Position numbers and translations under genes: made by a program. Below are positions 11,395-13,952 of a stretch of DNA of 36,869 bases, piece by piece. Location of the stretch: NCBI GenBank assembly GCA_028716525.1, contig JAQUPQ010000040.1, forward strand, positions 1 to 36,869, in the 5' to 3' direction. The DNA comes from Terriglobia bacterium (GTDB lineage: Bacteria; Acidobacteriota; Terriglobia; JAIQFV01). The notes under the pieces are model-generated. The model did not search any database. It saw only the letters and a program-made list of their open reading frames with translations, and had not been told where the DNA came from. The first letter of the stretch is position 1; each line of letters starts with the position of its first letter.

Positions 11395-12429
11395 CTACCA
11401 TTCGAACTTCAGCTGTTGTGACGGCACATCCGGAGCGTAAGCCGGAGCCTCGTCTTCCCTTTGATCACCCGGGATTTCGTATTTTTCCTTGAGTCGCGCA
11501 ACTCGCGCGAGAACCTCATCGCGATATGATTTTTTTAAATAGGCGGAACGCGAAAAGGCCCGTCGATATCGCTGTGAAAGACCGGGGAAGTTCGTGTCGA
11601 TGACGGGCAGCATATGCTGCAGTGCCGACGGCATCAGGTAAACAAGGCCGGCGTCGAGAAATTGGGCGCGGGCCTTGAAAGCCGCCTGCACCACCAACTC
11701 GAGATTGGCGGGATTGGTGGTGATGCCGGGTAGCAGCGGCATCACCAGCACACCGGCCTTCAGCCCGCGTTCGACCAATTTGCGGACCGCCTCAAATCGC
11801 AGGTCGGGACGCGGCGCCCGTGGCTCCAGGATCTGGGCCCATTGGGTGCTGGTCGTCGTGATGCTTAAATTTACCCGGACCGTGTTGCGGCGCGAAGCTT
11901 CCAAAAGTAAGTCCAGGTCGCGCAGTACCAGGTTCGATTTGGTTGTGATTGAAAAGTTCACTCCCTCGGCCCGGACCAGCACCTCCAGGAGTTGGCGTGT
12001 GACCTCAAACTGTTTCTCAGCGGGTTGATAAGGATCGGTGGCCGTGCCGACAGCAATTCTCTTTCCCGAGATTTGAGCAGGCTTCAATTCCCGCAGGAGA
12101 ATTTGGGCGGCCCCGACCTTGATGTAGATCTTGCGCTCAAAATCTTCCCGTTGGCGCAGTTCCATGAATTCGTGCGTATATCTCGCATAGCAGTATTTAC
12201 AACCAAATTCGCATCCCCGGTAGGGATTGATGGTCCATTGGAAGGGCATCTCGGGATTGGAGCATCGATTGAGAACCGACCGCGTCGGTAGTGAGAAATA
12301 TTCAACGTTCTTCTTGGTTCGGGCCAGGGGGCTTTCCGCCGCCAGCTTGGCAATGCCTTTGAGCTTGGAAAGCTCGAAGAAATCGGAGGGGATTTCACCT
12401 GCCGGTTGCGCCTTCGATGGATCGACCAT
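11395..12429 (-). CDS. SPL-like radical SAM protein
   Basis: 344 residues from the ATG at 12429, chosen because GGGAG lies six bases upstream. The open frame to 12705 would run through a hairpin leader, a promoter and an inverted-repeat element, so the extension is spurious. The iron-sulfur motif is CEFGCKYC (Cys73, Cys77, Cys80; CX3CX2C), preceded by INPYRGC. Other features are GTATDPYQPAEK, FSITTKSNLVLRDLDLL, LSITTT and GVLVMPLLPGI. This matches the group annotated as spore photolyase-like or Rv2578c-like radical SAM proteins. True spore photoproduct lyases occur in spore formers, so the substrate here is unknown. The tail EDEAPAYAPDVPSQQLKFEW is probably disordered. It ends 3 bp before the convergent aldo/keto reductase stop, without room for a terminator. 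Confidence 0.9.
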   Translation of the reverse strand: MVDPSKAQPAGEIPSDFFELSKLKGIAKLAAESPLARTKKNVEYFSLPTRSVLNRCSNPEMPFQWTINPYRGCEFGCKYCYARYTHEFMELRQREDFERKIYIKVGAAQILLRELKPAQISGKRIAVGTATDPYQPAEKQFEVTRQLLEVLVRAEGVNFSITTKSNLVLRDLDLLLEASRRNTVRVNLSITTTSTQWAQILEPRAPRPDLRFEAVRKLVERGLKAGVLVMPLLPGITTNPANLELVVQAAFKARAQFLDAGLVYLMPSALQHMLPVIDTNFPGLSQRYRRAFSRSAYLKKSYRDEVLARVARLKEKYEIPGDQREDEAPAYAPDVPSQQLKFEW

Positions 12430-12510: not shown

Positions 12511-12542
12511 ATTATATTCGCTTTTTGTTCGCCTTTTGTCAA
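12511..12542 (-). promoter_or_regulatory. Consensus-like promoter with a 20-bp spacer
   Basis: On the minus strand TTGACA (12537-12542) and TATAAT (12511-12516) are both perfect, but they are 20 bases apart instead of 16-18. It would drive the radical SAM gene. The long spacer is unusual and may make it weak or activator-dependent. Confidence 0.45.
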
Positions 12543-12556
12543 GTGAATTCTTCAGA

Positions 12557-12710
12557 GGGTAGTGACTCATTTTGAATGGGGTGGCGCACACATGCGCTCC
12601 AGGCATGTGTGCGGACTCTCCCTTGTTGATATACGCACACATCGTCCGCCACGGCGGCCGATGTGTGCGCCACCCAGAGGTGAAAAAGAATTCAAAATGA
12701 GTCACTACCC
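12557..12710. mobile_element. Short terminal-inverted-repeat element (MITE/REPIN-like)
   Basis: The 154-bp unit has identical inverted ends: GTAGTGACTCATTTTGAAT, preceded by GG, covers 12557-12577 and its complement covers 12690-12710 (21 of 21). Both ends are flanked by the direct repeat TTCAGA (12551-12556 and 12711-12716), which looks like a target-site duplication. Inside are two hairpins in inverted orientation: CGCACACATGC/GCATGTGTGCG (12585-12613) and CGCACACATCG/CGATGTGTGCG (12634-12669). It has no gene, so it would be non-autonomous. The mobilising enzyme is not in this window. Confidence 0.7.
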
Positions 12711-12953
12711 TTCAGAGAGATGGTGGCTCAGTTTGGAATCGCTTCTCCGGCAGAGCCACTATTGTCTGAACGGCCGCCGAAGCGGCATTCAGCCTGCAGA
12801 TGATGACAGAATATAGTGACGCCTCGAGGCCCGCGGTGCACAAACCGCACCGCGGCTACCCAAGCCTTCGCACTTCGGGGGGAGTTACCGTCTGTCACTA
12901 CATTTTAACCCCGCCGATAATTCATCACTCCACATTAAAGCGCCTGGAGGGCG
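12711..12953. other. Non-coding region with two further hairpin units
   Basis: The first unit pairs TTCAGA (12711) with TCTGAA (12765-12770) and GTGGCTC (12723-12729) with GAGCCAC (12753-12759). The second is bounded by TAGTGAC (12814-12820) and GTCACTA (12894-12900) and contains CCGCGGTGC/GCACCGCGG (12831-12855) next to a GCTACC box (12855-12860). I see no gene or clear promoter here. The TonB gene ends at 12954, so one of these may act as its terminator. Confidence 0.5.
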
Positions 12954-13703
12954 TTAATGCAGCCTGAAATTCACCGTGATGGTGGTTGAGACTTCCACCG
13001 GAACTCCATTCAGAATCGTGGGTCGATAACGCCATTGTAAAACAGCTCTTACAGCGGCATCAACCAGCAGCGGATGTCCGCTGAGCACGTGTAGGCCCGC
13101 AACGGTTCCGTCTTTGGAGATTATGGCCTCGAGAACCACGGGTCCTTGTATCCCGGCCGTCTTTGCCAACGGCGGGTATTCCGGCTGCGGTGCGTAAATT
13201 AAATTGGCTTGAGAAAGACTGCTGACCAGCCTGATGCGTTGAGCGGTGCCTGCCTCGGATGCTTTTGGCGTAGGTCGGGGTGGAGCCGGCAAACTCTTGC
13301 GTAACATTTGCATGAATTGCGAATCCGATCCGTCACCCGGTAGAGCGCCATCGATTCCAGGACGGATATCGGTGGGAGATCCGGCAGGCGGCGCCTCATC
13401 GACAATGCGAGGGATTGTTCGAGGGATTTCCCCCGGCGCTACAAATTGCGCTGTCTCTCTGGAGATTGTGCGATGTTCAACACTGACAATCCGAACCGCG
13501 CGGGGAGGCCGCGGGGCGGGCGCTGTCGGCGGCGAAGGAGTAAGCAGGTAATCGCGCATTTGGGTCATCGGCAATGCTTCAGTGTAAATCAGCGGAATAA
13601 GTACCAGCAGACCCAAGATGACCCCATGAGCGCAGATCGAAAAAAGCACCTTCGTTGTGCGGCGCGGTTCAGGTTGATTCTGTTCAAACAGTGATTCAGT
13701 CAT
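12954..13703 (-). CDS. TonB-family energy transducer protein
   Basis: 249 residues from the ATG at 13703, with AAAGGA nine bases upstream; the frame upstream to 13736 has no support. Residues about 18-40 (VLFSICAHGVILGLLVLIPLIY) form the single membrane helix. Then comes a Pro-rich periplasmic linker (TPSPPTAPAPRPPRAVRI onward), and about residues 168-249 are the TonB C-terminal domain (YAPQPEYPPLAKTAGIQGPVVLEAIIS, then LQWRYRPTILNGVPVEV). TonB proteins pass energy from the inner membrane to outer-membrane receptors. No exbB/exbD genes are beside it. The receptor at 21441-24401 is a possible partner by function only. Confidence 0.9.
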   Translation of the reverse strand: MTESLFEQNQPEPRRTTKVLFSICAHGVILGLLVLIPLIYTEALPMTQMRDYLLTPSPPTAPAPRPPRAVRIVSVEHRTISRETAQFVAPGEIPRTIPRIVDEAPPAGSPTDIRPGIDGALPGDGSDSQFMQMLRKSLPAPPRPTPKASEAGTAQRIRLVSSLSQANLIYAPQPEYPPLAKTAGIQGPVVLEAIISKDGTVAGLHVLSGHPLLVDAAVRAVLQWRYRPTILNGVPVEVSTTITVNFRLH

Positions 13704-13952
13704 TGGAGCCGATCCTTTCTCTTCTTGAGGCCGCATTCGATATCCATGTCCATCCCAATGGCTGGGTTCTAATGTTTTCCAGACGCCTCTTACGGGTTTA
13801 TTTGGCCTCTACCCGGTTAGACACCCGGCGAATCGTGTTGTTCCATTCCTTTTTCCTTGGAATTCAGGCAGAATGGATTTGCAATTCATCGACAATCCGA
13901 TGCGTTTCGCTGGATTCGGTCATTGAGATTCACTGTCAGAGAGGGGACTACG

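Follow-up and report, generated by a model that had tools for sequence, protein, structure and literature searches.

The window analysed here, a contig of 36,869 nucleotides from a Terriglobia bacterium (genome G000), carries a MITE of 152 bp (12558-12709), with no gene inside, that is very probably a non-autonomous derivative of IS1-type transposons, moved in trans and carrying a REPIN-like cargo. The mobility of the element and its borders are well supported, and sequence comparison lends reasonable support to an IS1-type family as its likely driver. In the mechanism that we propose, the transposase would come from IS1-type transposons of one group, with ends of the form GGTAGTG-NNN-CA(G/T)TTTGAA or close to it; it would be supplied in trans and would now be absent from, or unassembled in, G000. 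This transposase would bind the 20-bp ends and insert the element with 8-bp staggered cuts, giving rise to 8-bp duplications, and the MITE would carry along and multiply REP-like hairpins native to the lineage, arranged as an inverted doublet. The MITE is ordinary in kind and, with its hairpin passenger, somewhat unusual in build.

Borders and copies of the element

The inverted ends, originally described as 21 bp long, are present and are perfect over 22 bp in the window (12556-12577 and 12690-12711), but only 20 bp at each end belong to the element proper. Comparison of 18 copies places the true ends at GGTAGTG, starting at 12558 and 12709, and the two 20-bp terminal inverted repeats, GGTAGTGACTCATTTTGAAT, are identical in the window copy (Table 1). 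The base before GGTAG or after CTACC differs among copies because it derives from the target; in the window copy the outermost target bases are complementary (G and C), and they were mistaken for element for that reason. Similarly, the direct repeat TTCAGA (12551-12556 and 12711-12716), which the original prediction took for a 6-bp target duplication, is real but forms part of a longer duplication of 8 bp, CTTCAGAG, as alignment of the flanks of the 18 copies revealed. With up to three mismatches allowed, the end pattern was found twice in the window, against 0.00 expected from window shuffles.

Table 1. Features of the element and of its surroundings in the window (G001 and G002, genomes of the same family compared with G000).
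Feature	Position	Strand	Basis
Radical SAM gene, downstream of the insertion	11395..12429	-	PF04055, E 2.8e-16
Promoter-like block (CTTGACA...GCGAATATA), not part of the element	12511..12543	-	alignment with syntenic G001, G002
Left target site duplication CTTCAGAG	12550..12557	.	8/8 against right copy; flanks of 18 copies aligned
Left terminal inverted repeat GGTAGTGACTCATTTTGAAT, 20 bp	12558..12577	+	inverted pair, genome-copy comparison
REP-like hairpin 1, head GGGTGG, stem CGCACACATGC/GCATGTGTGCG	12579..12613	+	fold; family also outside the MITE
Inverted REP doublet (REPIN-like), 97 bp, heads outward	12579..12675	.	free doublets of the same layout in G001, G002
REP-like hairpin 2, inverted, head GGGTGG, stem CGCACACATCG/CGATGTGTGCG	12634..12675	-	fold, family comparison
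Right terminal inverted repeat, 20 bp	12690..12709	-	inverted pair, genome-copy comparison
Right target site duplication CTTCAGAG	12710..12717	.	copy comparison; flanks of 18 copies aligned
TonB C-terminal-domain gene, other side of the insertion	12954..13736	-	PF03544, E 4.2e-21

The assembly of G000 (4.2 Mb, 104 contigs, 96.5% complete) was searched for further copies of the 21-bp end, a check proposed together with the original prediction of a small mobile unit; both the search and the prediction held. The end occurs, with up to three mismatches, at 48 places (0 for a reversed control pattern). BLAST with the whole element returned 16 full-length copies of 92-100% identity, the window copy included, and two further copies share the same 50-bp internal deletion, bringing the total to 18. 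The 8-bp duplications are perfect in 13 of the 18 copies and match at 7 or more of the 8 positions in 17; each position of the duplication matches in 16 to 18 copies, and the duplications of all 18 copies differ from one another. Measured against their consensus, the 16 full copies show 0-8 differences over 152 positions, a 1-bp gap being scored as one difference; two of the copies are equal to it, and from this low divergence we infer that the burst of the MITE was fairly recent. The two short copies (C3:104526-104630 and C50:5974-6078) differ in linked substitutions, so that two independent deletions between repeated GCGCACACAT stretches are possible, which suggests that the 50-bp deletion may be recurrent. 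Left out of the 18 were a copy at C3:104300, whose sequence passes into Ns and whose flank duplicates that of C3:104527, so that it was treated as an assembly duplicate, and single ends without a clear partner (for example at C1:22549, C1:153672, C11:70756, C22:59964, C58:1437 and C60:5990).

Two other small structures were seen in the course of these comparisons. A second type of element with similar ends, 318 bp long and flanked by the duplication CTTCAACG, lies at C8:25087-25404 of G000, and in the window the stretch adjoining the MITE (12724-12764) may be a decayed small element, as GGTGGCTCAGTTTGGAA ... GAGCCACTATT resembles, by eye, the ends of the MITE.

The REP-like doublet in the interior

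The two internal hairpins originally noted are present (12585-12613 and 12634-12669). Both consist of the head GGGTGG followed by a stem beginning CGCANACAT.., and they are mutually inverted. The head pattern GGGTGGCGCANACAT is found 50 times in G000, 15 of them outside the MITE, 35 times in G001 and 33 times in G002; it occurs in 7 of 21 genomes, with 32 instances in the more distant G020. Free units in G001 and G002 comprise nine head pairs, eight of them spanning 93-132 bp and the ninth 190 bp, and no IS1-type ends were found around these doublets. Within 300 bp, the three genomes together have 13 inverted head pairs (two of them single palindromic hairpins of 41-43 bp), all facing outward and none inward, and four pairs in the same direction. 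As these free outward doublets are of the same family, the interior of the MITE has the build of a REPIN. The term REPIN-like in the original prediction is thus apt for the 97-bp interior, but not for the moving unit, which we take to be an IS1-type MITE.

The hairpins were compared in 47 readings from 28 loci, two palindromes being read on both strands, which leaves 45 hairpins. At stem positions 5, 8, 9, 10 and 11 both sides change and pairing is kept: position 5 goes from C-G to G-C in 6, and position 10 is G-C in 22 and C-G in 20, where it should be noted that readings were kept at 8 or more of 11 pairs with the best loop chosen, a procedure that favours pairing. The two hairpins of the MITE represent different stem types, ATGC and ATCG, each of which is frequent in the free hairpins. 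Neither a free copy of the exact interior doublet nor one of the same spacer was found, the BLAST matches in G000 outside elements with the MITE ends covering at most one hairpin, and no transposase remnant was detected in the interior. Together with the family comparison, the free doublets lead us to infer that the interior was captured from one of them.

An alternative is that the interior hairpins are the product of a local duplication within the MITE, their likeness to the REP family being no more than a resemblance. The 15 bp that the hairpins have in common, in inverted orientation, would fit such an origin, as would the failure to find the exact free doublet in G000. However, head and stem start match those of the free heads in all three genomes, the two hairpins belong to different stem types that are each common among free hairpins, and the free inverted pairs all have the polarity seen in the MITE; we therefore regard a local duplication as unlikely, and capture of a free doublet as the better reading.

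Several different palindromic repeat families are crowded together in two regions of G000 (C5:42129-59559 and C6:17633-29545). Some REP-like hairpins cluster on these two contigs; a reading of them as cassette arrays (attC) was set aside, since they are also found on further contigs and show covariation.

IS1-type transposons with the same ends

The original prediction held that the enzyme moving the element is not encoded nearby; this is correct, and a matching transposase was not found anywhere in the assembly of G000 either. The driver is for this reason deduced from other genomes. One candidate for an autonomous partner in G000, a stretch of 1110 bp (C83:7156-8265) in which IS1-type ends frame an IS200-type Y1 gene (tnpA), was rejected, because its transposase is of the Y1 type and its flanks match at only 5 of 8 positions; it may be a nested element.

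The 19-bp end, with at most one mismatch, is present in 8 of 61 genomes (G000 among the 61), and GGTAGTGACTCANTTTGA is found exactly in 27 of 399 genomes of the class. Among the first 20 loci taken from other genomes, 17 have elements of 89-588 bp with varied interiors and duplications matching at 7 or more of 8 positions (8/8 in 10 of the 17), and the remaining three are without such an element. A further 40 loci, 37 from other genomes and three from G000, included three transposons of 2.3-2.7 kb, in G181, G332 and G109, with ends of the MITE type and perfect 8-bp duplications. The sequence GGTAGTGACTCATTTTGA is found at both ends of the transposons of G181 and G332, and with one mismatch at one end in G109. 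Each of the three encodes a protein of 277-320 aa that matches Pfam DDE_Tnp_IS1 above the cut-off, and in G181 and G109 the transposase gene runs into the end repeat, which contains its last codons. Thus, the transposase with matching ends that was to be looked for exists in other genomes, but was not found in the assembly of G000.

At E<=1e-20, a profile built from these three transposases matched proteins in 135 of the 399 class genomes, G000 not being among them. At 30 transposase loci, among the matches listed, we searched for elements with GG tips, at least 12 of 18 complementary end positions and a duplication of at least 7/8. Complete elements were found at 13 of the 30 loci, all with duplications of 8/8 in a search that itself required GG and at least 7/8, and their ends read GGTAGTG-NNN-CAGTTTGAA or close to it; the same search gave nothing in the controls (0 of 39, made up of 9 chunks of the window and 30 shuffled loci). 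Of the 17 loci without a complete element, nine are cut by a contig end and eight are not.

Eleven of the 13 elements have an intact transposase, the other two being interrupted, and these 11 were scanned against family models. IS1 is the best NCBIfam family in all 11 (E 5.2e-13 to 7.6e-22), with transpos_IS1 scores of 49.4-78.2 bits against a curated cut-off of 100, and Pfam DDE_Tnp_IS1 (PF03400) matches at E<=0.001 in all 11 and above its cut-off in 10. Because the NCBIfam scores fall below the IS1 cut-off, we class the proteins as IS1-type and not as classical IS1. Residues D66, D138 and E203 are the same in all 11 transposases and probably form the catalytic triad. In the 11 intact cases the transposase is encoded by one ORF (276-324 aa), and the elements found in the class are 1.85-2.84 kb long; across the class and plasmids (see below) the transposons measure 1.9-4.2 kb. 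Could another DDE family that duplicates 8 bp, such as IS6, IS1595 or similar, drive the MITE instead? Besides the sub-threshold IS1 scores, weak secondary matches to IS6 (9 of the 11 members) and to IS1595 (7 of the 11) might be read in this way, but neither family was the best match of any of the transposases, whereas IS1 gave the best E-value throughout, the Pfam match is consistent, and homologues on plasmids are annotated as IS1, making such a driver very unlikely. We accordingly retain an IS1-like transposase as the enzyme that would have moved the MITE.

Transposons with GGTAGTG ends also carry variable extra genes: four of 10 scanned have a Pfam match (Fic, trypsin-like, proteasome-like, DUF3800). 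A small protein with a KAA.ARW-like end motif is present in six of the 13 elements by pattern, and in about eight by eye.

The ends are not confined to the class. Three homologues of the transposase (H1, H2 and H3), annotated as IS1 family transposase, are encoded on plasmids of Mesorhizobium loti, Acidiphilium multivorum and Hoeflea, and three of four named alphaproteobacterial plasmid loci have elements measuring 2.6-4.2 kb, with ends of the GGTAGTG or GGTAATG type and 8-bp duplications that are perfect; at the fourth (Methylocapsa) the same element search gave none. The Mesorhizobium element contains a gene annotated as histone H1. The exact 20-bp end was found in 22 stretches of GTDB genomes: six from Acidobacteria/Terriglobia, six from Deltaproteobacteria, four from Chitinophagaceae, two each from Ignavibacteriae and Syntrophaceae, one from Manganitrophaceae and one from an Actinomycetota record. 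In seven of the 22 a partner end matches at 17 or more of 18 positions, with a duplication of at least 7/8. Among these seven are three elements of 136 bp in one deltaproteobacterial MAG, with perfect duplications that all differ, and an acidobacterial MAG (PMUS01000093.1) carries the G181 element. A viral contig (IMGVR_UViG_3300044788_000021, 1656-5041) contains a 3.4-kb element with GGTAGTGACTCAGTTTGAA ends and the perfect duplication CAGTCGGG, a possible vehicle between hosts.

The build of the interior raises the further alternative that the whole unit is a REPIN, moved in single-stranded form by a RAYT or an IS200-type Y1 transposase. The interior is indeed an inverted doublet of REP-like hairpins, and G000 has 10 Y1_Tnp genes, one of which is closest to the RAYT model (65.8 bits, below the cut-off of 80); the REP-like heads nearest to this RAYT-like locus are about 800 and 1250 bp away. 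Against this, the 18 copies have 8-bp duplications and 20-bp terminal repeats that lie outside the hairpins, and Y1 enzymes are not known to duplicate their targets. Moreover, similar doublets are free of MITE ends in G001 and G002, and MITE ends elsewhere frame quite different interiors. Movement of the whole unit as a REPIN is thus highly improbable. RAYT-type transposases have been reported in Acidobacteria (PMC3733652).

Known systems and the genomic setting

Members of the IS1 family duplicate 8-9 bp of their target and have ends that start with GG; classical IS1 is about 0.8 kb long and has overlapping insA and insB joined by a frameshift. The transposons described here resemble IS1 in their GG-starting ends, their 8-bp duplication and a DDE transposase that best matches IS1 models; they differ from classical IS1 in being longer, with one transposase ORF, extra genes and scores below the NCBIfam cut-off, and the MITE itself differs from IS1 in having no gene. 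The closest IS1 relatives of the driver are presumably the long single-ORF IS1-like elements of the ISfinder ISMhu11 subgroup. No paper was found under the name ISMhu11 in the open-licence PMC literature.

The window element shares with prokaryotic MITEs, as characterized in the relevant passages of PMC10969869, a short, non-coding sequence, terminal repeats, target duplications and multiple copies, and differs from them in that no matching transposase was found in its own genome. A MITE that contains a REP is known from Coxiella burnetii: QMITE2, described in PMC5896051 as a 150-190 bp MITE with 7-11 nt duplications and a REP hairpin inside, provides a precedent; QMITE2 holds a GTAG REP, whereas the window MITE holds an inverted doublet of two REP types, and the passages on QMITE2 name no driver. 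REPINs, according to the part of PMC3116915 concerned with them, are inverted REP doublets with a spacer, proposed to move by RAYT tyrosine transposases; the interior of the MITE is like them, but here the doublet sits inside DDE-type ends with 8-bp duplications. In the passages of the open-licence PMC literature that our searches returned, no earlier description of this MITE or of the transposon group with its end code was found, also under REPINs nested with MITEs; an excerpt of a Sulfolobus paper (PMC3718332) mentions the IS1 family and MITEs, and the excerpts of PMC3852290 have no passage on IS1.

Our results assign a small orphan repeat to one particular, widely distributed group of IS1-type transposons that can be recognised by its end code, GGTAGTG-NNN-CA(G/T)TTTGAA, and such repeats can therefore be annotated across several phyla. 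They also provide a case in which a DDE transposase, instead of the tyrosine transposases to which this role is commonly ascribed, appears to disperse REP hairpins; such a route deserves attention in the interpretation of REP distributions. It is possible, if rather doubtful, that the MITE is a functioning chimaera of two unrelated mobile systems, in which a REPIN escaped its tyrosine transposase through being framed by IS1-type ends. A horizontally arriving DDE transposase would then spread REP hairpins through the genome, and the hairpins may remain substrates for resident Y1 or RAYT enzymes or shape expression at the sites where they land.

The element lies upstream of the radical SAM gene, as the original prediction had it. 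In G001 and G002 the TonB and radical SAM genes are also adjacent (identity 50% and 61-62%), separated by an intergenic gap of 215-218 bp with no MITE. The proposed comparison with empty sites can thus be answered in part: the element is absent from both syntenic loci, but a single target could not be aligned there, the sequences being too diverged. A block upstream of the radical SAM gene, CTTGACAAAAGGCGAAYAAAAAGCGAATATA, is near-identical in G000, G001 and G002. The target duplication begins 7 bp beyond TTGACA, so that the insertion has left the promoter-like block intact. The ORF of 436 aa listed for the radical SAM gene has its start inside the MITE as the result of a mechanical extension, and 12429 is the likely start of the gene itself.

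The predicted fold of the MITE is a long stem from which two hairpins branch off (z = -10.9 with RNA parameters and -12.3 with DNA parameters), and promoter and terminator scans inside it gave nothing. The strong fold and the adjoining conserved promoter-like block might be taken to indicate a structured RNA or a regulatory element of the radical SAM gene that is not mobile, but the dispersal of 18 copies, whose flanks and target duplications differ, the absence from two syntenic loci and the lack of any Rfam match up to E = 1 leave this reading with a negligible probability. The promoter-like block itself contains, on the minus strand, the motif GAAC-N7-GAAT, which we take to resemble the LexA/SOS box GAAC-N7-GAAC and regard as a putative site.
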